A model generated the notes under the pieces. That model saw only the letters and a program-made list of their open reading frames with translations. It did not search any database and had not been told where the DNA came from. Position numbers and translations under genes: made by a program. Of a DNA stretch of 64,000 nucleotides, positions 1 to 12,416 are shown piece by piece. Location: positions 1,798,001-1,862,000 of the forward strand of contig NZ_MKEQ01000001.1 of NCBI RefSeq assembly GCF_001875655.1. The letters run 5' to 3'. Origin of the DNA: Enterobacter hormaechei ATCC 49162. Its GTDB lineage: Bacteria; Pseudomonadota; Gammaproteobacteria; Enterobacterales; Enterobacteriaceae. The stretch's first letter is position 1, and every line of letters starts with the position of its first letter.

Positions 1-796
1 AAATCTCCCAGGTTCCCGACGAGAGAACCGGCTCATTAACCCCCGCACCGGCACCAAAAAGGGCGAACTGCGTGTCGTGCCCGGCGGAGATCACCGGCAC
101 GCCGCAGGGCAATCCGAGCCTGGATGCCGCGTCGGGCTGCAATTCACCCATCATTTCGCCGGGGGAAACCAGCGGCGGGAAAAGGAAATGAGGGACGCCT
201 GTCTTGCTTAAGATCGTTTCGCTGAAGCGCCGCTGATGGAGATCGAACATCTGGCTGGTACCGGCCATCGTGAGATCGGTCGTCATCTTTCCGGTCAGGC
301 GATGGTTGATAAGCGAGGAGATAAAAAGCCAGGCGTGAGCACGCTGTAACAGTTCGGGATGGTTGTCCTGAAGCCAACGTAACTTATACAACGTGTTAAA
401 ACTAAACTGGCCAACGCCGGTGATCTGCTGTAGCTCAGCCGGAGAGCACGAACGGGCAACCGCCTCCATCACCGGCACGGTGCGGGGGCATTTCCAGCTA
501 ATGATCGGGTAAAGCAGCGCTCCACGCTCATCCACCAGCGCGCCATCCACGCCAAAGGTCGTCACACTCATTCCGCACAGGTCATGCTCGCTCAGCACTG
601 CGCTGATTTTCTGACAACAGACGGCAAAACGTTGCATGATGGCGTCGAGCGACCACTGGTGCCAGGCCGGATTTTCAGCGGCGCTCTCGCTTTCATTTGC
701 CACCGCGGCGCGCGCCACAATATTCCCTTCGGGATCCAGCGCAATGGCGCGCACATTAGTCGCGCCACAATCGAGAACCAGAAAACATTTTTTCAT
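1..796 (-). CDS. fucK: L-fuculokinase, C-terminal part cut by window edge
   Basis: FGGY-family sugar kinase that phosphorylates L-fuculose to L-fuculose 1-phosphate (also D-ribulose to its 1-phosphate) in the cytoplasm. About 265 N-terminal residues are visible. The start [20 protein letters not shown] carries the phosphate-binding DCGATN loop, followed by the [19 protein letters not shown] and [15 protein letters not shown] segments typical of FucK; the reading frame runs off the left edge without a stop. The ATG at 796 has a GGGGA ribosome site just upstream. It lies 49 bases after fucI on the same strand and is presumably co-transcribed with it. Identity rests on recalled close similarity to E. 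coli FucK. Confidence 0.93.
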
Positions 797-811
797 CGCG
801 GTCCCCACAGG

Positions 812-839
812 CTGCCAGCCCGCCAGAGCAGGCTGGCAG
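812..839 (-). promoter_or_regulatory. Intercistronic hairpin between fucI and fucK
   Basis: CTGCCAGCC at 812-820 pairs perfectly with GGCTGGCAG at 831-839 around a 10-base loop, giving a 9-bp GC-rich stem in the 49 bases between fucI and fucK. No T-tract follows on the minus strand, so it is not a clear terminator; an mRNA-stability or partial-attenuation role for the fucI 3' end is inference. Confidence 0.5.
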
Positions 840-845
840 GCCGGC

Positions 846-2624
846 TTAATGTTTGTATAACGGTCCGTAATTTTCACAGGCGCGGTAATCCTGCCCTTCT
901 GGATCCATACCGTGAGCGCCCCAGGCCGTCGGCCGATAAATCAGCGCCTCCGGCACGTTATGCATGCACACAGGGATGCGCAGCATGGACGCCAGGGTGA
1001 TGAAATCAGCCCCGACGTGCCCGACGGTTAATACCCCGTGGTTAGCGCCCCAGTTCGCCATCACTGAATAGACGTCGCTGAACGGGCCTTTCCCGGTCAG
1101 GCGTGGGGCAAACCAGGTGGTCGGCCAGGTTGAATCGGTGCGCTGATTCAGAATGTCATGCACCTGTTCCGGCAACTCAACGCTCCAGCCTTCCGCTATC
1201 TGTAATACCGGCCCCACACCCTTGATGAGGTTTACGCGGGTCATGGTAAATGGCACGCCACCCCGGGTGAGGAAGTTTGATGAGAAACCGCCCCCGCGGA
1301 AGTATTCATGCACCGCCGGACACCAGTGGGTTGCGGCCAGGCACGCGCTGGCTTCCTGCTCAGTAATGTCCCAGTGCGGTTTCAGGGTCGGTTTTCCCTC
1401 TGCGTCTTTCTGCTCCGCGGTACCGTCCAGCGCCGCAGAGCCGGAGTTGATCAGATGAATAATGCCGTGTTCAGCCCGTCCAGTGAGCTTCTGGCCGGTC
1501 ACACGCTCCACCGACTCCGGCGACCAGTAGGTGCGTACATCAGCAAATATCTGCGCGGTACCGGTCATCAGGTGCCCAAACAGCATCGCTACCCCGTTCA
1601 GGCTGTCATTTTCCGTCGCCACCACGAACGGCTGGCGAATTCCGTTCCAGTCGAAGGAGCTGTTCAGCAGCGCTTCTGCGGTATCGCCATTCGGATAGTG
1701 ATCCGTCCAGTGGCGCTGCCCCTGGAAGCCGGACGCAATGGCGTTATAGCCCAGCGATTCCTCCACGCGGCCCATCGCAGCAAGTTTGGGGTTGCCCTGC
1801 ATCATGTCGCGAATGCACATCGCCATCAGCAGGCTTTCCCGCAAAATCGCGGCATTTTCCTGTTCATTGCGGCGATACTGCGCCGCGTTTTTATCCTCGC
1901 CGAAACGGAAATGTGCTTGCGCCCAGTCCAGGGCCAGCTCAAGTTCTTGTTCGTCGTAAATCTTATGATCGATGCGGCGGCGCAGTTCGGTCATATCCAC
2001 CGCCTGCACCTTCATCCCCAGCCAGGATTCAAAGAAGTTGTGATCGACAATCGAGCCAGCGATCCCCATCGAGACGCCGCCCACCGACAGATAACTTTTC
2101 CCCTTCATGCTGGCGACCGCCAGGCCCGCCCGGGCAAAGCGCAACAGTTTTTCCTCAACGTCTGCCGGGATGGCCTCATCGCCCGCATCCTGTACATCGT
2201 GGCCGTAAATGGAAAACGCCGGGATCCCTTTCTGATTATGCGCCGCCAGCGCCGCCGCAAGGTATACCGCCCCCGGACGCTCGGTGCCGTTAAAGCCCCA
2301 GATCGCTTTCGGGCGCAGCGGATCCATATCTATGGTTTCACTCCCGTAACACCAGCAGGGGGTGACGGTGATCGTCAGACCCACGTGGCACGTGCTGAAC
2401 TTCTCTTCACACGCGGCAGACTCCGCCATTCCGGCAATACAGCTATCAGCAATCACGCACTCGACGGGCGTACCGCAGGGGTGGCGTAATTTTTCACTGA
2501 GTAGCGCCGCCGTGGCTTTCGCCATGTTCATGGTCTGCTCTTCCAGAGACTCGCGTACCCCCATTCGGCGGCCATCAATAACAGGTCGAATGCCAATCCG
2601 GGGTAACGCTTTTATCGTTTTCAT
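846..2624 (-). CDS. fucI: L-fucose isomerase
   Basis: Cytoplasmic Mn-dependent ketol isomerase converting L-fucose to L-fuculose; the family also converts D-arabinose to D-ribulose. The protein is 592 residues against 591 in E. coli. The metal-ligand glutamate and aspartate (E337/D361 in E. coli) fall at E338 in ATENDSLNG and D362 in [11 protein letters not shown]. The start [20 protein letters not shown] is the family N-terminus. It is first in a minus-strand fucI-fucK operon, transcribed away from the ABC importer genes, and its promoter region carries a CRP site and a palindromic operator. No truncation or frameshift is seen. Confidence 0.96.
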
Positions 2625-2718
2625 AGCCCTTCCTCACGTTGGTTAACCTATCCGTCTCAGGGGGCATCGCCGTGAAAAAGCGCCCGGGCAGCACCGTGAA
2701 CGGAAAGCGGTGAAATTT

Positions 2719-2734
2719 GCTAACTCGAATTAGC
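2719..2734. promoter_or_regulatory. Candidate LacI-type operator, fucI side
   Basis: GCTAACTCGAATTAGC is an almost perfect palindrome centred on CG, the usual symmetry of LacI-family operators. A second copy with the same arms lies at 2958-2973. This copy overlaps the inferred -10 and start site of the fucI promoter, where a bound repressor would block transcription. The likely binder is the LacI-type protein encoded at 8178-9173; that pairing is inference from proximity and site symmetry. Confidence 0.7.
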
Positions 2735-2761
2735 TTAGGGTTCACTCTAAAAATGAGACAA
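2732..2761 (-). promoter_or_regulatory. Candidate fucI-fucK promoter
   Basis: On the minus strand a -35 TTGTCT (2756-2761) and a weak -10 TAAGCT (2732-2737) are separated by 18 bases. The expected start near 2725 places the CRP site centre about 61 bases upstream, the class I position, and puts the operator over the -10 and start. The -10 is poor, as expected for an activator-dependent promoter. Assigned by inspection only. Confidence 0.4.
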
Positions 2762-2778
2762 GGTAAATGTGCAGGATC

Positions 2779-2794
2779 TGTGAGCAAATTCACG
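2779..2794. promoter_or_regulatory. Candidate CRP-cAMP site
   Basis: TGTGAGCAAATTCACG matches the CRP core TGTGA-N6-TCACA at 9 of 10 positions. It lies between the two divergent sugar operons and nearer to fucI, at about -61 from its inferred start. A weaker half-matching site (TTTGC-ACGACG-TCACA) is at 2884-2899, on the side of the ABC operon. Catabolite control of a sugar locus is expected; no binding was tested. Confidence 0.65.
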
Positions 2795-2957
2795 ATGAGA
2801 GGTCAAAATTCGATCAGCGTCAGGTATTACGATTCAGCAAAATTAAAATATATTTTTTAAATTCAATCAAATAACAAAATACCTTTGCACGACGTCACAA
2901 TTTGAATACAAATGATTTGGCTAAATTATGACCCTAAAATAGCTTTTAAGGACGAAA

Positions 2958-2973
2958 GCTAAGTCGAGTTAGC
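2958..2973. promoter_or_regulatory. Candidate LacI-type operator, ABC-operon side
   Basis: GCTAAGTCGAGTTAGC repeats the arms GCTAA/TTAGC and TCGA core of the site at 2719-2734; TTA follows the right arm in both copies. The centres are 239 bases apart. It lies 60 bases before the ATPase start and just downstream of a -10-like TAAAAT at 2935-2940, so a bound repressor would block the plus-strand operon. Two matching sites in one divergent region make chance unlikely. Confidence 0.7.
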
Positions 2974-3032
2974 TTATTAACCACATCACTGTGCCTTGTG
3001 ATTCATTGCCTTTCCAACACAGGAATTTTGCA

Positions 3033-4532
3033 ATGTCAGAGACTCTTATTCAGATGACGCGCATCACCAAACGCTTTCCCGGCGTGCTGGCGCTGAATCA
3101 GGTTGATTTCGATTTACGCCGCGGCGAAGTTCATGCCCTGTTAGGTGAAAATGGTGCCGGAAAATCGACGCTAATGAAAATATTGTCCGGTGTTTACCAG
3201 CCCGATGCCGGTGAAATTCGCTTTGAAGGGCAATCCATATCATTCAGCGATCCGCTAAGTGCTCAGCACGCAGGTATTACGATTATCCATCAGGAATTTA
3301 ATCTCTTTCCCGATTTAACCGTGGAAGAAAATATCTTTATTGGCCGTGAGTTCTGCAAAAATAGTCGCTGGCAGTTAGATAAACGCGCCCAGCGACAGGC
3401 AGTTGAGAAAATACTGCACACGCTGAATTTAAAAATCGCCCCTGACACCCGCGTCAGTGAATTAACCGTAGCCCAGCAGCAGATGGTGGAAATTGCCAAA
3501 GCGATTTCGGTTAATGCCAAAGTGCTGATCATGGATGAACCCACAGCCGCCCTGACTGAAAGTGAAATTGAGAGTCTGTTTGACGTCACGCGGATGCTCA
3601 AGGCTCAGGGCACGGGGATTGTCTATATTTCGCACCGTCTGGAAGAGCTGGCGCTGATCGCCGATCGCGCCACCGTCATGCGCGACGGACAATACATCGC
3701 CACCGTGGATTACGAAACGGTCCAGATTGGCGAGCTTATCGCCATGATGGTTGGCCGCAATCTCGATAACATCTACCCAAAACGCCCGCCGCCTCAGCGT
3801 AGAGAAAAAGTGCTGGAGGTGAACGGCCTGTCGCGTAACGGCGTACTGCATGACATCACCTTCACCCTCTGGCGCGGTGAGATCCTCGGCCTCGCTGGCT
3901 TAATGGGCTCAGGCCGAACGGAACTGGGCCGTGCCCTGTTCGGTGCCGATGCGATCGACGGCGGTACCCTGACGCTGAACGGTATCCCCACCCGAATTAA
4001 AGACGTGGCTGACGCCATTGAAAAAGGCATCAGCTATTTAACAGAAGACCGCAAAAAAGAGGGACTCGCCCTCGGCCTTTCCGTTGAGATGAACATTATG
4101 CTCGGCAATTATCCGGACTACGCCGGTGCCGCGGGTCATGTCAACGAAAAACGCTGCCGGGAGGCCAGCCAGAAACTGGTGGATGCACTGCGAATAAAAA
4201 CGCCGCATCTGGAACAGGCGGCACTGAATTTAAGCGGCGGTAATCAACAGAAGATCATTATTGCCCGCTGGGTCTGTAAAGACACCGATATTTTAATTTT
4301 TGATGAGCCAACCCGGGGAATTGATGTCGGCGCCAGGCGGGAAATTTATGAATTAATGAACCGCCTTGTCGCGAAAGGTAAATCGATCATCATGATTTCA
4401 TCCGAACTGCCGGAAGTATTAGGAATGTGCGACCGCATACTCGTGATGCGCAGCGGCCGCATAGCCGGTGAAATAGAGGCTGAGCACGCCACCCAGGAAA
4501 AAATCATGCAATACGCCACGCTGGAGGATTAA
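3033..4532 (+). CDS. Sugar ABC importer, ATP-binding protein (RbsA/XylG type)
   Basis: A 499-residue cytoplasmic ATPase with two fused nucleotide-binding domains, the architecture of ribose/xylose-type carbohydrate importers. Domain 1 has Walker A GENGAGKST (38-46), Q-loop HQEFNLFP, a degenerate signature LTVAQQQ and Walker B VLIMDEPTAAL. Domain 2 has an altered Walker A (GLMGSGRTE), a canonical LSGGNQQK signature and ILIFDEPTRGID, as usual in this subfamily. I start at 3033 (MSETLIQ) because AGGAA precedes it; the frame also allows 2991, which would add 14 unlikely residues. The permease follows two bases after its stop. The substrate cannot be read from the ATPase; context suggests L-fucose, D-arabinose or a related sugar. 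Confidence 0.9.
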   Translation: MSETLIQMTRITKRFPGVLALNQVDFDLRRGEVHALLGENGAGKSTLMKILSGVYQPDAGEIRFEGQSISFSDPLSAQHAGITIIHQEFNLFPDLTVEENIFIGREFCKNSRWQLDKRAQRQAVEKILHTLNLKIAPDTRVSELTVAQQQMVEIAKAISVNAKVLIMDEPTAALTESEIESLFDVTRMLKAQGTGIVYISHRLEELALIADRATVMRDGQYIATVDYETVQIGELIAMMVGRNLDNIYPKRPPPQRREKVLEVNGLSRNGVLHDITFTLWRGEILGLAGLMGSGRTELGRALFGADAIDGGTLTLNGIPTRIKDVADAIEKGISYLTEDRKKEGLALGLSVEMNIMLGNYPDYAGAAGHVNEKRCREASQKLVDALRIKTPHLEQAALNLSGGNQQKIIIARWVCKDTDILIFDEPTRGIDVGARREIYELMNRLVAKGKSIIMISSELPEVLGMCDRILVMRSGRIAGEIEAEHATQEKIMQYATLED

Positions 4533-4534
4533 TC

Positions 4535-5518
4535 ATGCCCGTTACCGTTCCATCGCCGCAAAGCGGAAACCCTACGATGAAAATAAATAAAGCGCTCCTG
4601 ATGCGTCTGGCGCCCCTTTTAAGTCTGGTGCTGCTGGTTCTGTTTTTCAGCTTCAGCTCACCGTTCTTCTTTAATACTGAAAATATCATGACTATCGCCC
4701 TGCAAACGGCGGTGATTGGCATCATGGCCATTGGCGTGACCTTTGTGATTATTACCGCCGGGATCGACCTGTCACTCGGATCGGTGGTGGCGTTCTCCGG
4801 TGTTGCCGTTGGCATAACCGCCGGGTTTGGTATGCCGCTGCCGGTCTGTATTCTGGCGGGCGTGCTGGCCGGTGGCGTATGCGGGTATGTGAACGCCTTT
4901 CTGGTCACCAAAATGACCATTCCACCGTTTATTGCCACCCTCGGCCTGATGATGTCGGTACGCGGCATCAATATGGTGATGACCGATGGCCGCGCGATCT
5001 ATTTTTCTGACTACCCACAGTTCAAGCTGCTGGCGCAGGGTCGCCTGTTCGACATTCTGCCTTATCCGGTGTTCTACCTGGTCATCGTGGCGCTGATCGC
5101 CATGTGGATCCTGAAGAAAACGGTGATGGGCCGCTATATCTACGCAGTCGGCAGCAATGAAACGGCGGCACATCTTTCCGGGATCAACGTCCAGCGCGTG
5201 AAAATTTTCGTTTACGCCTTCTGCGGTCTGTTAACCGGCGTGGCCGGGGTGATCCTCGCCTCTCGTCTCAACTCCGGCCAGCCAACCGTAGGCGTGGGTT
5301 ATGAGCTGGAAGCTATTGCGGCGGTCGTGATCGGCGGGACCAGTCTGATGGGCGGCGTGGGCACCATTGGCGGCACCATCATAGGCGCGTTCATTATGAG
5401 CGTGCTGAAGAACGGCCTCAATCTCATGGGCGTGTCCCAGTTCTGGCAGATGGTGGCAATGGGCGTGGTCGTCGTTGCCGCCGTCTACCTGGACACGTTA
5501 CGTAAAAGAATGCGTTAG
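4535..5518 (+). CDS. Sugar ABC importer, permease (RbsC type)
   Basis: Inner-membrane subunit of the importer, 327 residues, with many hydrophobic helices from residue ~18 onward and the family motif VVIGGTSLMGGVGTIGGT near residues 267-284. It pairs with the ATPase ending two bases upstream and the binding protein 46 bases downstream. The start at 4535 is supported by GGAGG about seven bases before it; an internal ATG at 4577 would remove a short polar N-terminus and has a weaker ribosome site. The composition matches neighbouring genes. Confidence 0.9.
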   Translation: MPVTVPSPQSGNPTMKINKALLMRLAPLLSLVLLVLFFSFSSPFFFNTENIMTIALQTAVIGIMAIGVTFVIITAGIDLSLGSVVAFSGVAVGITAGFGMPLPVCILAGVLAGGVCGYVNAFLVTKMTIPPFIATLGLMMSVRGINMVMTDGRAIYFSDYPQFKLLAQGRLFDILPYPVFYLVIVALIAMWILKKTVMGRYIYAVGSNETAAHLSGINVQRVKIFVYAFCGLLTGVAGVILASRLNSGQPTVGVGYELEAIAAVVIGGTSLMGGVGTIGGTIIGAFIMSVLKNGLNLMGVSQFWQMVAMGVVVVAAVYLDTLRKRMR

Positions 5519-5564
5519 GTTCTCGATACAACAAGCCCTGCCAACCCTACAACGGAGCAAAATA

Positions 5565-6515
5565 ATGAAAACCAGCCATATCCTGAGCGCCCTGTCGCTC
5601 GTTGCCATCCTGTCCAGCAGCGCGCTGGCCAAAGATTTAAACCTGCCGGTGGTCAGTAAAGGTTACCAGCACGAATTCTGGCAGACGGTCAAAATGGGGA
5701 CGGAAGCTGCCGCAAAAGAGTTAGGTGATAAAACCAGCTACGTTGGCCCTGCCGATGAAACGCAAATCGCCGAGCAGATCCAGCTAGTCGAAAACACCAT
5801 GGCACAAAAGCCAAACGGCCTGTTGCTGGCTGCCCTTGATGCAAACGCCCTTGCCCCGCTGGTGGAAACCGCCAACAGCCGGGGGATCAAAGTGGTGACC
5901 TTCGACTCAGGCGTGAACTCCGATATCCCGGCCAGCTTTGTCGCCACCAATAACCGTAAGGCGGGCGCACAGGCGGCGGATGCGCTGGCGGAGCAGGTTG
6001 GCCAGAAGGGGAAAGTGGGTATTATCGCCCACGTAGCGGGGACGACGTCAGCCATTGAGCGCTCCGAAGGGTTCAGCGAGCGGATGAAAGAGAAGTACCC
6101 GAATATTCAGGTTCTGCCAGTGCAATACAGCGATGGCGACCCGCAAAAAGCGATGGATAAAACCATTGATATGGTTCAGGCCAACCCGGATATCGCCGGT
6201 ATTTATGCCACCAATGAAGGCTCAACCCTGGGCGTTGCGAACGCTATCGACAGCCAGAATCTGAAGGGCAAAGTGAAAGTCATCGGTTTTGACAGCACTG
6301 AAGCCATCATTAACTTCCTCAAAAACGGCGTGATTCAGGGCTTCGTGGTGCAGGATGCGTACCAGATTGGTTATCAGGGCATAAAAGCGCTGAACGCGGT
6401 AATTTCCGGACAAACGGTAGCGAAAGAAATTGATATTCCAGTGAAATATGTCAATGCGCAGAATATCAACACCCCTGAAATTGATAAACTGTTACATCCA
6501 TTTGGTAAAAAATAA
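5565..6515 (+). CDS. Sugar ABC importer, periplasmic binding protein (RbsB type)
   Basis: Exported sugar-binding protein of 316 residues. Residues 1-22 form a signal peptide (MKTSHILSALSLVAILSSSA, cleavage after SALA before KDLNLPVV). The mature part has the type I periplasmic fold signatures: KGYQHEFWQTVKMGTE, a VTFDSGV strand, VATNNRKAGAQAA and GIYATNEGSTLGVANA. The start at 5565 has GGAG upstream; an extended frame from 5475 overlaps the permease and would bury the signal peptide. Third gene of the import operon. Ligand unknown, inferred to be L-fucose or a similar deoxy- or pentose sugar from the neighbouring catabolic genes. Confidence 0.9.
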   Translation: MKTSHILSALSLVAILSSSALAKDLNLPVVSKGYQHEFWQTVKMGTEAAAKELGDKTSYVGPADETQIAEQIQLVENTMAQKPNGLLLAALDANALAPLVETANSRGIKVVTFDSGVNSDIPASFVATNNRKAGAQAADALAEQVGQKGKVGIIAHVAGTTSAIERSEGFSERMKEKYPNIQVLPVQYSDGDPQKAMDKTIDMVQANPDIAGIYATNEGSTLGVANAIDSQNLKGKVKVIGFDSTEAIINFLKNGVIQGFVVQDAYQIGYQGIKALNAVISGQTVAKEIDIPVKYVNAQNINTPEIDKLLHPFGKK

Positions 6516-6526
6516 GGATGTTCATG

Positions 6527-8116
6527 ATGCGTGACGGCTATTTTCTCGGGGTCGATGTGGGTTCAGCCAGCGTGCGTGCAGGGCTTTACTCTGCGCAAGG
6601 CGCGCGGTTGAGCTTCGCGACTCGTCCGATTTCGCAGTTTCACGCCAGCAACGCGCGGGTGGAACAATCCTCTGCGGAGATCTGGCAGCAGGTTTGCGCG
6701 GTGGTGCGGGAAGCCGTCGCCTCCTCTGGGATCTCACCCGACGCCATTCGTTCGATTGGCTTCGACGCTACGTGCTCACTGGTCGCGCTGGATGCGGACG
6801 GTAACGGCCTGAGTGTCTCCCCGGACAGCCCGGCCTCGCAGGACATCATTATGTGGATGGATCATCGTGCTCGCGAAGAGACCGTTCGCATCAATGCCAC
6901 ACGCGACCCGGCCCTGTGCTACGTGGGCGGCGAGGTGAGTATTGAGATGGAACTGCCCAAACTGCTGTGGTTGCAGCGGCACCATCCTGACACCTGGGAT
7001 CGGGCCTGGCGTTTTTTCGACCTGGCCGATTTTCTGGTCTGGAAAGCGACGGGCCAGGACGCCGCCAGCCTGTGCACCCTCACCTGTAAATGGAACTACC
7101 TTGCGCATGAGGCGCGGTTCAGCGAGTCGCTGCTCAGGGATGTGGGGCTGGAAACCTTACTGACAAAAATTCCCGATACTATTCTGGACGTTGCTGAATG
7201 CGTCGGGAAACTCAGCCCGCAGGCAGCGCAAGCGCTGGGTTTGCACGAAGAAGTGGTGGTGGCAAGCGGCATGATCGATGCCCACGCGGGTGGCGTAGCG
7301 CTGACTGGATCCCATCCGGAAGGCACGCTGGCGCTCATCAGCGGGACCTCGAACTGCCACATGCTCGCAAGTCAGACGGAGATCCACACGCCCGGCGTCT
7401 GGGGGCCTTACTGGAGCGCCATGCTGCCGGGCTACTGGCTGACGGAGGGCGGGCAAAGTGCCGCCGGGGCGCTGGTGGACTGGACGTTGCGCGAGCACGG
7501 CGCCAGTGCAGACCTGTTTGCCAAAGCAGAAGCGGCACAACGTCATCCGGTGGCGCTGCTCAACGACTGGGTAGCCGCACTAGAGCAGGAAGAGAAGTAT
7601 CCCACCCGCAACCTGCACATTCTGGCCGATCACCACGGCAACCGTTCGCCGCGTTCGCGTCCGGATGCGCGGGGCAGCGTGGTCGGCCTGACATTAGAAA
7701 CCGGTGAACGCGCGCTGGCGAGGCTCTATCTGGCCACGCTACAGGCCATCGCCTATGGCACGCGACACATTATGGATACCCTGAAACACCACGGGCACAG
7801 CTTGTCGCGCATTGTCATTTGTGGCGGAGCCACCCATAACCGGCTCTGGCTGCGGGAGTATGCCGATGCCACGGGCTGCGATATCCATCTTTTAGCCGAA
7901 GAAGATGCCGTCACCCTCGGCGCGGCCATTTGTGGCGCTGTGGCGAGCGGTGCATGGGCAACGCTGACCGACGCTACCCGTGAAATGGTTAAAGCTGGCG
8001 ACATCATCACCCGTCGTCCGGAAACCGCAGCCTTCCACCGGCAAAAATATGAGGCGTACCTGATGCTGTGGACCCAGCAGCAGTCGCTTAATATCCTGAT
8101 GCAGCAGGAAATGTAA
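6527..8116 (+). CDS. FGGY-family pentulose-type carbohydrate kinase
   Basis: A second sugar kinase in the locus, ~529 residues, clearly different from FucK. It starts DGYFLGVDVGSASVRAGLYS (phosphate-1 loop) and has FDATCSLVALD, IMWMDHRA, GMIDAHAGGVAL, ALISGTSNCHM and the adenosine loop ICGGATHNRLWLREYADATG. These match the FGGY pentulose-kinase group that includes eukaryotic D-ribulokinases (recalled, not searched). AAGGA at 6514-6518 overlaps the first ATG at 6518, so I prefer the ATG at 6527; 6524 is also possible. It lies 11 bases after the binding protein, within the operon. A D-ribulose substrate, formed by FucI from D-arabinose, is a plausible inference. Confidence 0.85.
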   Translation: MRDGYFLGVDVGSASVRAGLYSAQGARLSFATRPISQFHASNARVEQSSAEIWQQVCAVVREAVASSGISPDAIRSIGFDATCSLVALDADGNGLSVSPDSPASQDIIMWMDHRAREETVRINATRDPALCYVGGEVSIEMELPKLLWLQRHHPDTWDRAWRFFDLADFLVWKATGQDAASLCTLTCKWNYLAHEARFSESLLRDVGLETLLTKIPDTILDVAECVGKLSPQAAQALGLHEEVVVASGMIDAHAGGVALTGSHPEGTLALISGTSNCHMLASQTEIHTPGVWGPYWSAMLPGYWLTEGGQSAAGALVDWTLREHGASADLFAKAEAAQRHPVALLNDWVAALEQEEKYPTRNLHILADHHGNRSPRSRPDARGSVVGLTLETGERALARLYLATLQAIAYGTRHIMDTLKHHGHSLSRIVICGGATHNRLWLREYADATGCDIHLLAEEDAVTLGAAICGAVASGAWATLTDATREMVKAGDIITRRPETAAFHRQKYEAYLMLWTQQQSLNILMQQEM

Positions 8117-8177
8117 TGGCAGGATGCATATGCTTTATCAGCAGTTTTTTACGTACGTTAAGGATTGAGGCGTAGCA

Positions 8178-9173
8178 ATGGCCAAAACAGTTGAACAGAT
8201 AGCGAAGGATCTGAATTTATCCGTCACCACCGTGCGGCTGGTACTGGGCGGAAAAGCCGAACAGTACCGAATCAGTGTGAAAACACAGTCCCGAATTAAT
8301 GAACACGTTGAGCGCTTCGGCTATACCCTCAACCATTCGGCACGCAGTCTTAAGCTAAACAAAACCGAGACGCTGGGGCTTATCGTGCCCAACATCTCGA
8401 ACGTGTTCTTTGCAACCCTCGCCGAGAAACTCGAACTGCGCTGCCGCCGTTCGGGCTACCAGCTGATGATCAGCTGTACTTACAACGATGTGGATTACGA
8501 AAATAAGCTGGTGAAAGCCCTGATGGCGCGCAACGTGGACGGCTTGTTTATCGTTCCCTCGACGCTGGAAAACCAGCAGCATCATTTGCGGCAGATCCAA
8601 AAACCCCTGGTGCTCCTCGACCGGGATTTTGGCTTTACTGACAACGCGCTGGTTGAGAGTCATAACGAGGCCGGGGGGGATGAACTGGCCCGGAACATGC
8701 TGGCAGAGAGTAAAACGCCGCTCTGGTTCCTGGTGGGCGATACCGCCCTGCCCAGCATTACGGACCGTCTGAACGGCTATTTGCAGGCCCTGAAAGCCGC
8801 CGGTATTCACCACCGCGAATGGGTCATCGAAGGGCCAGACAATACGCCGGAAGGGGGGTATGCCCTGATGGATTCGCTTATCGACAGCCAGGGTGTGCCG
8901 CAGGCGTTTATCGCCTCATCATTACCGGTACTGGAAGGAGCAATCGAAGCCCTGCGCACGCGTACCGGCACCGTGCCCCCACACATAAATATCGGCACCT
9001 TCGATGAGCACCCCATGCTGGGGTTCCTGCCTAACAGCGTCTGGTCCATGCAGCAGGATGAAGATACCTGGGCGGAAAAAGCGTTTGAACTGATGCAGCG
9101 AGCCATCGACGGCGAAGCGGTCAACGAGACGGCGAAAGTCGATATGAAGCTGGTCAAACGTTCCCGCCAGTAA
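8178..9173 (+). CDS. LacI-family transcriptional regulator of the sugar locus
   Basis: DNA-binding repressor-type protein of 331 residues. The N-terminal helix-turn-helix VEQIAKDLNLSVTTVRLVLGG (residues 5-25) is followed by a hinge helix with SARSLKLNKTETLGLIVPNI and a periplasmic-binding-protein-like effector domain (ISNVFFATLAEKLE, DGLFIVPS, LVLLDRDF). The start has GAGG upstream. It lies between the second kinase and fucA on the same strand, so it is probably autoregulated with the importer operon. The two CG-centred palindromes at 2719 and 2958 are the obvious candidate operators. It occupies the role that DeoR-family FucR has in E. coli. Confidence 0.9.
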   Translation: MAKTVEQIAKDLNLSVTTVRLVLGGKAEQYRISVKTQSRINEHVERFGYTLNHSARSLKLNKTETLGLIVPNISNVFFATLAEKLELRCRRSGYQLMISCTYNDVDYENKLVKALMARNVDGLFIVPSTLENQQHHLRQIQKPLVLLDRDFGFTDNALVESHNEAGGDELARNMLAESKTPLWFLVGDTALPSITDRLNGYLQALKAAGIHHREWVIEGPDNTPEGGYALMDSLIDSQGVPQAFIASSLPVLEGAIEALRTRTGTVPPHINIGTFDEHPMLGFLPNSVWSMQQDEDTWAEKAFELMQRAIDGEAVNETAKVDMKLVKRSRQ

Positions 9174-9200
9174 AAATAAAACTGTACCCGGAGAATAAAA

Positions 9201-9848
9201 ATGGAACGAGCCCGATTAGCCAGAGACATTATCGACACCTGCCTTGAGATGACCCGGATGGGGTTAAATCAGGGCACCGCAGGCAATATCAGCGTTCGCT
9301 ATCGCGACGGCATGCTGATTACGCCCACCGGTATTCCCTATGAGCATCTGACCGAAGAGAGTATCGTCTATGTCGATGCCGAGGGACGGCACGAAGAAGA
9401 TAAACTGCCGTCCAGCGAATGGCGTTTTCATCAGGTTGTGTATCAGACCCGCCCGGACGCTCACGCCGTCGTCCATAACCATGCGGTTAACTGCACCGCC
9501 GTCTCGATACTCAACCGCCCTATTCCTGCCATTCACTATATGATTGCCGCCGCCGGGGGGAACTCCATTCCCTGCGCGCCTTACGCGACCTTCGGGACAC
9601 GCGCGCTGTCAGAGCATGTCGCGGTCGCGTTACGCGATCGTAAAGCGACGCTGTTGCAGCACCACGGGCTGATTACCTGCGAAGAAAATCTCGAAAAGGC
9701 GCTATGGCTGGCGCAGGAGGTCGAGGTGCTGGCAAAACTCTACCTGGCCACGCTGGCGATTGTGGATCCCGTTCCGGTACTCAGCGATGAAGAAATTGCC
9801 ATTGTTCTTGAGAAATTCAAAAGCTACGGGTTGCGCATTGAGGCGTAA
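9201..9848 (+). CDS. fucA: L-fuculose-1-phosphate aldolase
   Basis: Zn-dependent class II aldolase cleaving L-fuculose 1-phosphate to dihydroxyacetone phosphate and L-lactaldehyde (D-ribulose 1-phosphate gives glycolaldehyde). The length of 215 residues equals E. coli FucA. The catalytic and zinc residues are in register: E73 in SSEWRFH, H92 and H94 in VHNHAVN, H155 in LLQHHGL. It closes the plus-strand operon, 27 bases after the regulator, with GGAG before the ATG. Downstream a weak GGGTG/CACCC hairpin (9861-9879) lacks a clear T-tract. Confidence 0.96.
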   Translation: MERARLARDIIDTCLEMTRMGLNQGTAGNISVRYRDGMLITPTGIPYEHLTEESIVYVDAEGRHEEDKLPSSEWRFHQVVYQTRPDAHAVVHNHAVNCTAVSILNRPIPAIHYMIAAAGGNSIPCAPYATFGTRALSEHVAVALRDRKATLLQHHGLITCEENLEKALWLAQEVEVLAKLYLATLAIVDPVPVLSDEEIAIVLEKFKSYGLRIEA

Positions 9849-9962
9849 TTTTTTTTCCGGGGGTGCTTTTATTACACCCTCGTAATATCTCTTAAACAAA
9901 CACCTATTTACCGCACTTATCACCCCGCCTAAACTATGGCCTGCTTTTTGGTAGAGGTGGTA

Positions 9963-11321
9963 ATGAACGATTATAAAATGACGCCAGGCGAGCTACGCGC
10001 GACCTGGGGTTTAGGGACTGTGTTTTCGCTACGGATGCTTGGCATGTTTATGGTCCTGCCTGTTCTGACCACGTACGGCATGGCGCTACAGGGGGCCAGC
10101 GAAGCGCTGATTGGCCTTGCGATTGGCATTTACGGTCTGGCGCAGGCCATTTTTCAGATCCCGTTTGGGCTGCTTTCCGATCGCGTTGGGCGTAAACCGC
10201 TGATTGTCGGCGGGCTGGCGGTGTTTATCATCGGTAGCGTCATTGCTGCGCTTTCAGATTCTATCTGGGGCATTATTCTTGGTCGCGCGCTTCAGGGATC
10301 AGGGGCGATTGCCGCCGCCGTGATGGCGCTCCTCTCAGATTTAACCCGCGAGCAAAATCGAACGAAAGCGATGGCCTTTATTGGCGTCAGTTTTGGCATC
10401 ACCTTCGCCATTGCCATGGTATTAGGACCGATTATTACTCATGCCCTTGGCCTCAACGCCTTGTTCTGGATGATTGCCGTTCTCGCCGCCACAGGCATTG
10501 TCATTACCCTCTGGGTGGTGCCAGACAGCAAGAATCATGTTCTGAACCGTGAGTCGGGCATGGTCAAAGGTAGCTTCAGTAAAGTACTGGCTGAGCCCAG
10601 ACTGCTGAAACTCAACGTTGGCATTATGTGTCTGCACATTTTGTTGATGTCTACCTTTGTCGCGCTGCCCGGCCAGCTTGCCGCTGCGGGCCTGTCCGCC
10701 GCCGAACACTGGAAAGTGTATCTGGTAACGATGCTGATTTCGTTTGCTTCCGTAGTGCCGTTTATTATCTATGCCGAAGTTAAGCGTCAGATGAAACGGG
10801 TATTCCTGGGCTGCGTGACCCTGATTGTGATTGCAGAAATTATTCTCTGGGGTGCGGGCTCACACTTCTGGGAATTGATTATCGGCGTTCAGCTCTTTTT
10901 TCTGGCGTTTAATCTGATGGAAGCCCTCCTCCCCTCGCTTATCAGCAAAGAGTCACCGGCAGGATATAAAGGCACGGCGATGGGCGTTTATTCCACCAGC
11001 CAGTTTCTGGGCGTCGCGATTGGCGGCTCGCTGGGTGGCTGGGTTGACGGGATGTTTGACGGCCAGACCGTGTTTCTGGTTGGCGCGCTGCTGGCAATGG
11101 TATGGCTGGCCGTGGCAAGCACGATGAAAGAGCCGCCTTATGTCAGCAGCCTGCGCGTGGAAATTCCGGAAGGCGTGGAGATAAACGCCTTGCTGCAACA
11201 GCGTCTGGAAGCAAAAGAAGGGGTTAGCGAGGTCTTTATTGTCCCTGAAGAGCGTAGCGTCTACGTCAAAATTGACAGTAAAGTGACCAATCGCTACGAA
11301 GTCGAACAAGCCCTGGTTTAA
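9963..11321 (+). CDS. yajR: MFS transporter with C-terminal YAM domain
   Basis: Inner-membrane major facilitator of ~452 residues (E. coli YajR 454), a proton-driven exporter of unknown substrate. It has twelve predicted helices, the MFS motif A FGLLSDRVGRKPLIVGG and, after the last helix, a ~65-residue cytosolic domain (LRVEIPEGVEINALLQQRLE onward) that matches the YAM domain of this family. I start at 9963 (MNDYKMTPGEL) because GAGGTGG precedes it; a frame from 9936 adds nine unsupported residues. In E. coli it borders the cyo genes; here its left neighbour is the fucose locus. Confidence 0.93.
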   Translation: MNDYKMTPGELRATWGLGTVFSLRMLGMFMVLPVLTTYGMALQGASEALIGLAIGIYGLAQAIFQIPFGLLSDRVGRKPLIVGGLAVFIIGSVIAALSDSIWGIILGRALQGSGAIAAAVMALLSDLTREQNRTKAMAFIGVSFGITFAIAMVLGPIITHALGLNALFWMIAVLAATGIVITLWVVPDSKNHVLNRESGMVKGSFSKVLAEPRLLKLNVGIMCLHILLMSTFVALPGQLAAAGLSAAEHWKVYLVTMLISFASVVPFIIYAEVKRQMKRVFLGCVTLIVIAEIILWGAGSHFWELIIGVQLFFLAFNLMEALLPSLISKESPAGYKGTAMGVYSTSQFLGVAIGGSLGGWVDGMFDGQTVFLVGALLAMVWLAVASTMKEPPYVSSLRVEIPEGVEINALLQQRLEAKEGVSEVFIVPEERSVYVKIDSKVTNRYEVEQALV

Positions 11322-11726: not shown

Positions 11727-12416
11727 ATGAAAAAGATTCTTCTCGCTTCAACCCTCGCGCTGTGTGTCACTTCAGCGTTTGCCGCCGATCCTTCGGCTGT
11801 ACTGAAAGTTAAAGGCACCCTTACCAACGCGGCGTGTACTCCGGAACTGAGTAACGGCGGTGTTGTTGATTATGGCATGATCCGTCTTGGCGAACTCTCT
11901 GCGACCGCGACAAACCAGCTTGGTCAGAAAAACATCGATCTGACAATTAGCTGCGCCAGCAATACAAAAGTGGGTTTTCAGGTTGATGATGACCGCAACA
12001 GTTCCGACGCGTATCTGACCGTTGAAAATGCATACTTTAATGGTTCTTCAGCATCACTTGGCTTTGATACCTATGGTGTTGGTGTGACTGACGGAGGTGT
12101 GAAAATCGGAAGCTGGGCGGTAAGCGCCAGGACCGACAGTATTCTTGCTGATGGTAAATCCGTAGACTTTATTTCAAGCCCGGACTGGAGCGATAGCGGC
12201 GCACCAAACTGGACCTCCAACGCCACAAAGGGCCAACTGTCTCCGACCCGAGCGGTCTACAGTGTAGCCGCTACAGGTACGCTGGAGCCCGTTGCATTTA
12301 AATCTGTGACTTTCCCACTTCAGGTTTCTCTGGCCATTCAGAATACCGCCACGCTTGCCATTACCGACGATACCGCAATTGACGGTCAGGCAACGATTAC
12401 GCTGAAATATCTGTAA
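11727..12416 (+). CDS. Secreted fimbrial-like DUF1120 protein
   Basis: Exported protein of 229 residues. Residues 1-20 are a signal peptide (MKKILLASTLALCVTSAFAA) followed by DPSAVLKVKGTLTNAACTPE. The Cys pair (TNAACTPEL near residue 38 and LTISCASN near residue 76), the beta-rich sequence and the C-terminal QATITLKYL fit the DUF1120 group, which resembles fimbrial subunits. No chaperone, usher or other subunit gene lies nearby, so it is an orphan. E. coli K-12 has no gene here as I recall. Function unknown; surface or periplasmic location is inferred from the signal peptide. Confidence 0.8.
   Translation: MKKILLASTLALCVTSAFAADPSAVLKVKGTLTNAACTPELSNGGVVDYGMIRLGELSATATNQLGQKNIDLTISCASNTKVGFQVDDDRNSSDAYLTVENAYFNGSSASLGFDTYGVGVTDGGVKIGSWAVSARTDSILADGKSVDFISSPDWSDSGAPNWTSNATKGQLSPTRAVYSVAATGTLEPVAFKSVTFPLQVSLAIQNTATLAITDDTAIDGQATITLKYL

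Follow-up and report, generated by a model that had tools for sequence, protein, structure and literature searches.

The first part of a 64,000-nucleotide stretch of Enterobacter hormaechei ATCC 49162 (contig NZ_MKEQ01000001.1, positions 1,798,001 to 1,862,000; 'the window', meaning this whole stretch) carries a fuc locus in which genes for an ATP-binding cassette (ABC) importer, an FGGY-family kinase and a LacI-family regulator lie between divergent fucI and fucA genes, replacing fucP. With a probability that we place at about 0.8, this locus is an L-fucose and D-arabinose variant of the type found in Escherichia coli B, located here between cyoE and yajR and using the sugar routes and the LacI- and CRP-based control proposed below. 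A variant of this kind is already known; the present one differs in its site and in the lack of fucR and fucO from the locus. The most useful additions made here are conserved regulatory sites, a link to enzymes of family GH172, and natural variants of the locus that have no kinase gene.

In the proposed scheme, the ABC importer would take over the role of FucP and import L-fucose-like sugars, including D-arabinose. FucI would then convert D-arabinose to D-ribulose, and a kinase of the DarK type would phosphorylate it to D-ribulose 5-phosphate, which would enter the pentose phosphate pathway, while L-fucose would be processed through FucI, FucK and FucA. The LacI-type protein would repress both divergent transcripts from two operators approximately 239 bp apart, probably with formation of a DNA loop between them, and CRP would act as an activator.

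The fuc locus in E. coli B, in relatives and in the window

In the E. coli B strain C3029, the corresponding genes lie between rlmM and xni in the order fucR-fucU-fucK-fucI, followed by ATPase-permease-binding protein-FGGY kinase-LacI-fucA-fucO; strain TB06052 shares that order, as does BLR(DE3) over the part read. The window's proteins are 85% (FucI), 80.5% (ATPase), 88% (permease), 91% (binding protein), 70% (kinase), 76% (LacI), 67% (FucK) and 81% (FucU) identical to those of E. coli B, and the corresponding values against K-12 are 85% (FucI), 67% (FucK) and 84% (FucA). K-12 harbors fucP at the point where E. coli B harbors the ABC-kinase-LacI block: TB06052 matches K-12 at 99.2% as far as 12 bases short of the fucI start and, beginning 21 bases into fucA, at 98.3%, and the stretch between these aligned flanks measures 6.8 kb in the former and 1.9 kb in the latter. 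A preliminary description of the window, made from its sequence, had contrasted the locus with that of 'E. coli', a contrast that does not hold for the species as a whole, since E. coli B possesses the same locus and the published accounts link it to growth on D-arabinose (PMC12307932, PMC6150544, PMC3446290). Across 5,426 E. coli genomes, darK was found in 378 and fucP in 4,993 (separate totals, gene order having been read in three E. coli records), and a published survey of 1,058 E. coli genomes gives 50 with the 'variant 2' fucose operon, in which an ABC transporter stands in for fucP (PMC10221146).

The preliminary description had further proposed a search for the same gene order in related bacteria. 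A kinase-based scan of one genome per species, in which the best 80 of 222 relatives were kept, recovered the order read in E. coli B from Citrobacter, Escherichia whittamii, Huaxiibacter and Lelliottia as well. The locus is found at the cyoE-yajR site in E. hormaechei and Huaxiibacter, as well as in Lelliottia (where the left flank is cut), and at the rlmM-fucO site in Citrobacter and Escherichia whittamii; in RIT691, yajR lies on the fucU side of the locus. The Citrobacter loci read here do carry ABC genes, unlike the statement in PMC10221146 that 60% of Citrobacter have neither fucP nor a defined ABC transporter. The D-arabinose cassette of E. coli B is therefore no oddity of B strains: loci of Citrobacter, Escherichia and Enterobacter have an ABC-DarK-LacI block instead of fucP, and they occupy two main positions in the chromosome. 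The origin of darK is reportedly raised as a question in the 1994 abstract of Elsinghorst and Mortlock, and the wide occurrence of the block bears on it.

Within the genus, the insertion site was established from a survey of 60 genomes (in what follows, loci and genomes are labelled L and G). CyoE was found in 59 of them, and the best-scoring 30 of these 59 loci were surveyed for their flanks: yajR is the next gene after cyoE in 26 (with approximately 0.8 kb between the two in L146 and L147), a fuc locus follows in two, no yajR lies within the 1.5 kb flank in one, and the contig ends in the last. FucI is present in nine of the 60 genomes, seven of which have ABC-type loci and two the canonical FucP type (G013 and G022). 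Both flanks were read for six of the ABC-type loci (that of the window's own genome and those of G005, G008, G023, G065 and G081), which are bounded by cyoE and yajR; in the seventh, that of G067, yajR borders the right side and the contig stops at fucU on the left. From these flanks and this distribution, a single-site insertion with patchy carriage is well supported, which agrees with the earlier suggestion of a lineage insertion beside yajR, at cyo; the inserted segment includes fucU. The nearest relative of the window's kinase (97% identical) is encoded on an E. hormaechei record, NZ_CP056156.1 (L020), that is typed as a plasmid of 362 kb and carries cyo, the fuc locus, yajR, thiI, ispA and dxs. 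The genes cyo, yajR, thiI, ispA and dxs are normally chromosomal, and the record may be part of a split chromosome or a matter of assembly.

The genes named in the preliminary description are present with open frames at the positions stated. The gene for L-fuculokinase, fucK (positions 1 to 796, reverse strand), is truncated by the start of the window, with its start codon near 796; the part present scores 420.7 bits against TIGR02628 (full-length cut-off 470.9), and the remainder is found in the genome (L013), followed leftward, outside the window, by fucU and then cyoE. The gene for L-fucose (D-arabinose) isomerase, fucI (846 to 2624, reverse strand; TIGR01089, 1177 bits against a cut-off of 850), is separated by a divergent intergenic region of approximately 410 bases from the genes for a ribose-type sugar ABC importer, which are read from the forward strand and encode an ATP-binding protein (3033 to 4532; best model RbsA-type, 585 bits, below the cut-off of 745), a permease (4535 to 5518; profile matches) and a periplasmic sugar-binding protein (5565 to 6515; PF13407). 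On the same strand follow the FGGY kinase, a DarK orthologue and predicted D-ribulokinase (6518 to 8116), which contains FGGY_N and FGGY_C domains and exceeds the TIGR01315 cut-off (531 bits against 409); a LacI-family regulator of a Cra/ScrR-like branch and predicted local repressor (8178 to 9173; TIGR02417, 234 bits, below the cut-off of 390); and fucA, encoding L-fuculose-1-phosphate aldolase (9201 to 9848; TIGR01086, 409 bits against 400). These assignments rest on NCBIfam scores, with FucI, FucA and the kinase above their cut-offs. The importer proteins match ribose-type models below cut-off (allose- and ribose-type for the binding protein), as does the regulator its own model, so that their names are family names only. 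The best solved relatives of the binding protein are 4rxt and 4wut; the former is reportedly a D-arabinose complex, a point on which nothing in the argument rests.

The right flank of the insertion is formed by yajR (9936 to 11321, forward strand), with YajR_YAM and MFS domains. Between yajR and yajQ, at positions 11727 to 12416, lies an open reading frame for a secreted-looking protein of 229 residues that resembles a fimbrial subunit by eye; it has no annotated counterpart in the E. hormaechei relative L020, in which yajQ follows yajR.

Replacement of both fucP and fucR had been claimed for the locus, and the two halves of that claim fared differently. FucP has no match anywhere in the window's genome at E<=1e-20, in keeping with the claim, and fucR is missing from the locus only, as a FucR-family protein (409 bits against the NCBI FucR model, cut-off 259) is encoded elsewhere in the genome (G000:C2:498194-498925; L160:8191-8925); loss of fucR from the genome was accordingly rejected. 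The gene for that protein is flanked by those for a chemotaxis receptor and a glutathione-dependent oxidoreductase, and no fuc genes were found around it in the 18 kb read (L160, contig C2). Matches to the FucR-family protein (E<=1e-90) were obtained in 43 of the 60 same-genus genomes: in all nine with FucI, two of which represent canonical fucR, and in 34 of the 51 without FucI, and the idea that the protein forms part of the fuc locus is thus not supported. No fucR was found, either, in the interval that separates fucU from its flanking gene in Huaxiibacter (L030), two E. hormaechei loci (L020 and L029) and Escherichia whittamii (L037), and its presence is treated here as a variable feature of the E. 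coli B type locus. The gene fucO does not occur in the window's locus, to which the search for it was confined.

Orthology of the kinase and the choice between sugars

The relationship of the window's kinase to DarK was examined in a tree of 67 FGGY kinases and AraB, built by a quick search with support from the Shimodaira-Hasegawa-like approximate likelihood ratio test (SH-aLRT); 24 of the 80 loci had been set aside before tree building because they were near-duplicates or lay on short contigs, one of them being L038, which is cut on its fucI side. A single clade of 24 rows (SH-aLRT 100) unites the window's kinase with E. coli B DarK and with proteins from Citrobacter, Atlantibacter, Chimaeribacter and others, and RbtK and the Rbl-like kinase fall outside it. 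Within flanks of up to 9 kb (several being shorter), FucI is encoded in the locus in 24 of 24 rows of this clade and in none of the 43 other kinase rows. In three Chimaeribacter loci (L021, L045 and L046), FucI, kinase and LacI genes occur in the regions read without FucK, FucA or ABC genes, a set that ties the kinase to the product of FucI. The kinase is thus, from its placement, the orthologue of E. coli B DarK, and its assignment as a D-ribulokinase, predicted by that orthology to phosphorylate D-ribulose at C5, is well supported; the preliminary description had anticipated both the enzyme type and its expected substrate, the FucI product. The only close kinase of the TIGR01315 type found in the genome is that of the window, the next match being 30% identical. 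A residue of AraB (A96 in 3qdk) has no counterpart in the window's kinase in a phmmer alignment, a weak and alignment-dependent point; PMC12307932 describes A96 as the only L-ribulose contact that is not conserved in the D-ribulokinase RblK. The DarK-type proteins described here do not fit the statement in PMC3245297 that D-ribulokinases of the RbtK type occur only in Alphaproteobacteria.

Three loci with kinases outside the DarK clade encode, after the kinase, an unannotated protein of approximately 550 residues (L023:10611-12266, L024:10614-12260 and L047:10584-12284, the last seen as an open frame only). The L023 protein matches the FucI C-terminal domain at 25.7 bits, below the cut-off of 29.3, and that of L024 gives no match; an operator of the type described below for the fuc locus stands just before the kinase gene in L023 and L024 (exact) and in L047 (one mismatch). 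These proteins may be unrecognised aldose isomerases.

Published phenotypes bear on the routes themselves. DarK has been reported to be a D-ribulokinase that is required for D-arabinose metabolism and is inserted in the L-fucose locus (PMC12307932). Strain REL606 is listed as growing on D-arabinose and not on L-fucose, with K-12 showing the reverse (PMC3446290, Table 1), BL21(DE3) is reported to grow on both sugars (PMC6150544), and BL21 is reported to grow slowly on L-fucose after a long lag (PMC10221146). The annotation of the C3029 and BLR(DE3) records has fucA split by an IS1 element (L026:11770-13194 and L182:8777-10201). A split fucA would explain failure to grow on L-fucose without any defect in transport, and sits badly with the reported L-fucose growth of BL21 strains; growth results on L-fucose published for E. 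coli B strains may be confounded by it.

Several observations weigh against the proposed L-fucose and D-arabinose locus with a D-ribulokinase. The nearest solved kinase (3gg4 and 3l0q) was deposited as a glycerol or xylulose kinase, so that the PDB gives no direct support for a D-ribulokinase, and the kinase itself, at 70%, is less similar to its E. coli B counterpart than are FucI, the ABC proteins and LacI (76-91%), FucK alone being lower (67%). In an order-level relative (L191), a kinase 48% identical stands beside a 66% identical binding protein and ABC genes, and no FucI is encoded on that contig of 8.5 kb. The distant FucR-family protein might act on the fuc locus too. Finally, three loci, one from the same genus (L161) and two from the same family (L189 and L190), retain the ABC genes, LacI, FucU, FucK, FucI and FucA and have no kinase gene, from which it follows that importer and kinase are not inseparable. 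These loci came from searches that were not made with the kinase, and they represent one of seven ABC-type loci in the genus and, across 394 order-level genomes, two of the four same-family genomes with a binding protein at E<=1e-95.

Those kinase-less loci argue for an alternative in which importer and regulator are primarily an L-fucose system that replaced FucP, with D-arabinose a side substrate and the kinase an optional addition. That account, which overlaps the explanation preferred here and differs from it in the main sugar of the importer, is possible and in our judgement rather unlikely. It draws further on the nearly complementary counts of fucP and darK in E. coli given above (compared as separate totals) and on PMC10221146, which defines the variant by an ABC transporter in place of fucP and finds BL21 slow on L-fucose. 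Against it stands REL606, which has the variant and uses D-arabinose and not L-fucose (PMC3446290); the split fucA in two E. coli B-derived records means, however, that this phenotype says little about import. The genomes with kinase-less loci also hold other kinases of the family elsewhere (43%, 43% and 60% identical), so that these loci do not settle whether L-fucose is the importer's only sugar. As natural variants, they could separate the sugar of the importer from that of the kinase.

A second alternative is that the importer brings in D-ribulose, as the Rbl importer of Citrobacter rodentium does; there, too, ABC genes and a D-ribulokinase-family gene share an operon (PMC12307932), and L191, with an ABC-kinase pair and no FucI on its short contig, could be taken in the same sense. 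Such a system is marked by the lack of a FucI-type aldose isomerase, as an imported ketose would need none, whereas FucI is present in the window's locus and conserved in all 24 loci of the DarK clade; moreover, the Rbl-like kinase of the genus (L018) lies outside that clade, and the proteins of its locus are 25-42% identical to those of the window. Import of D-ribulose was consequently judged very unlikely. A different ketose as substrate of the kinase (L-fuculose, L-xylulose or a ketohexose) is slightly less probable still. It might be proposed from the mixed 'pentulose kinase' character of TIGR01315 and from kinases outside the clade that belong to other operons, of which some include DHDPS-like aldolases and one (L023) the sub-threshold FucI-like match; against it, FucK already covers L-fuculose, and orthology to DarK and the D-arabinose phenotype of E. 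coli strains carrying the locus point elsewhere.

Conserved operators and a possible wider regulon

The regulatory reading of the L-fucose and D-arabinose locus begins with three sites in the fucI-ABC intergenic region: a predicted LacI-type operator (GCTAACTCGAATTAGC, positions 2719 to 2734) that matches GCTAANTCGANTTAGC exactly, a CRP-like site (TGTGA-N6-TCACG, 2779 to 2794) that lies 60 bp from the start of that operator and was recognised by its resemblance to the CRP consensus, and a second predicted operator (GCTAAGTCGAGTTAGC, 2958 to 2973) located 239 bp from the first. Exact matches to GCTAANTCGANTTAGC occur at two places only in the 4.89 Mb genome, both within this region; allowing two mismatches adds two further places, compared with 13 for a reversed control pattern, and only exact sites therefore carry weight. 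The two operators are 238-240 bases apart in all 27 ABC-type rows scanned (L162 and L029 being one genome), and both are found with at most one mismatch in 25 of these, the remaining two (L042 and L044) having one site with one mismatch and the other with three. Over their 32 positions, the window's operators share 94% identity with those of E. coli B, compared with 56% for the 223 bases that separate the two sites; for a Citrobacter locus, the corresponding values are 94% and 61%. The CRP-like site keeps its 60-base distance from the first operator in all 18 loci examined, among them two from Chimaeribacter, with a 6-base spacer that varies. Operators and CRP-like site are thus conserved from Enterobacter to Escherichia, and a LacI-type repressor acting through a loop, together with activation by CRP, would be the natural reading of their arrangement. 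The possibility that the regulator had already been named in a survey of LacI-family regulons was set aside, as fucose, D-arabinose and ribulose were not found in the main text of PMC4052901.

The same operator reaches beyond the fuc genes. In five loci, an exact copy lies approximately 0.1-0.16 kb before a GH172 (DUF2961) gene that is followed by a gene for a GPH symporter (Huaxiibacter L030:15212-15227, Lelliottia L083:13778 and Chimaeribacter L021:14597, L045:14609 and L046:14598); in fifty simple shuffles of another locus (L022, 19.6 kb), sites with two mismatches or fewer averaged 0.02. The pair lies inside the fuc locus in Huaxiibacter and Lelliottia and beside the FucI-DarK-LacI set in Chimaeribacter. 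GH172 is encoded in two of the 60 same-genus genomes (G067, Lelliottia, and G081, Huaxiibacter), and no match was found in the window's genome at E<=1e-60. Among solved structures, the GH172 protein is closest to alphaFFase1 (7v1v, 547 bits), with the exo-alpha-D-arabinofuranosidase 8ic8 at 118 bits. The former cleaves both alpha-D-fructofuranosides and alpha-D-arabinofuranosides, and its authors favor fructosides as the natural substrates (PMC8605356); other GH172 members are reported to be D-arabinofuranosidases (PMC10115798). For an enzyme within a D-arabinose regulon, an arabinoside would be the better guess.

The analysis predicts the operators and a regulon that extends to GH172 enzymes in relatives, and we suggest tentatively, at somewhat less than even odds, that the LacI-type regulator governs a wider module for alpha-D-arabinofuranoside salvage that includes GH172 and the GPH symporter. 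If so, D-arabinofuranosides, for example pieces of D-arabinan from mycobacteria, corynebacteria or pilins, would be imported and hydrolysed in the cytoplasm, and the D-arabinose released would be burned through FucI and DarK, with the window's locus forming the free-sugar half of the module. A literature search on GH172 and Enterobacter returned only papers whose titles concern other subjects.

Comparison with known systems

The ribitol operon of Klebsiella (rbtD-rbtK-rbtT) resembles the window's locus in encoding a D-ribulokinase of the same subfamily (45% identical), and differs from it in that D-ribulose is formed from ribitol by a dehydrogenase, and the part of the operon region that was read holds neither FucI nor ABC importer genes. 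With the Rbl system of Citrobacter rodentium the window's locus shares an ABC importer and an FGGY D-ribulokinase, but Rbl imports D-ribulose (PMC12307932); the Rbl-like locus of the genus (L018) departs further from the window, as it has two genes of permease type, its kinase falls outside the DarK clade, and FucI is missing from the part that was read. The fuc regulon of E. coli K-12 has fucI, fucK, fucU and fucA in common with the window, but holds fucP between fucI and fucA and no ABC, DarK or LacI genes at that point. The E. coli B cluster differs in its rlmM-xni site and in carrying fucR and fucO, neither of which is in the window's locus at cyoE-yajR, and it is alike in the order fucU-fucK-fucI followed by ABC-kinase-LacI-fucA, in its paired operators and in the CRP-like site between them.

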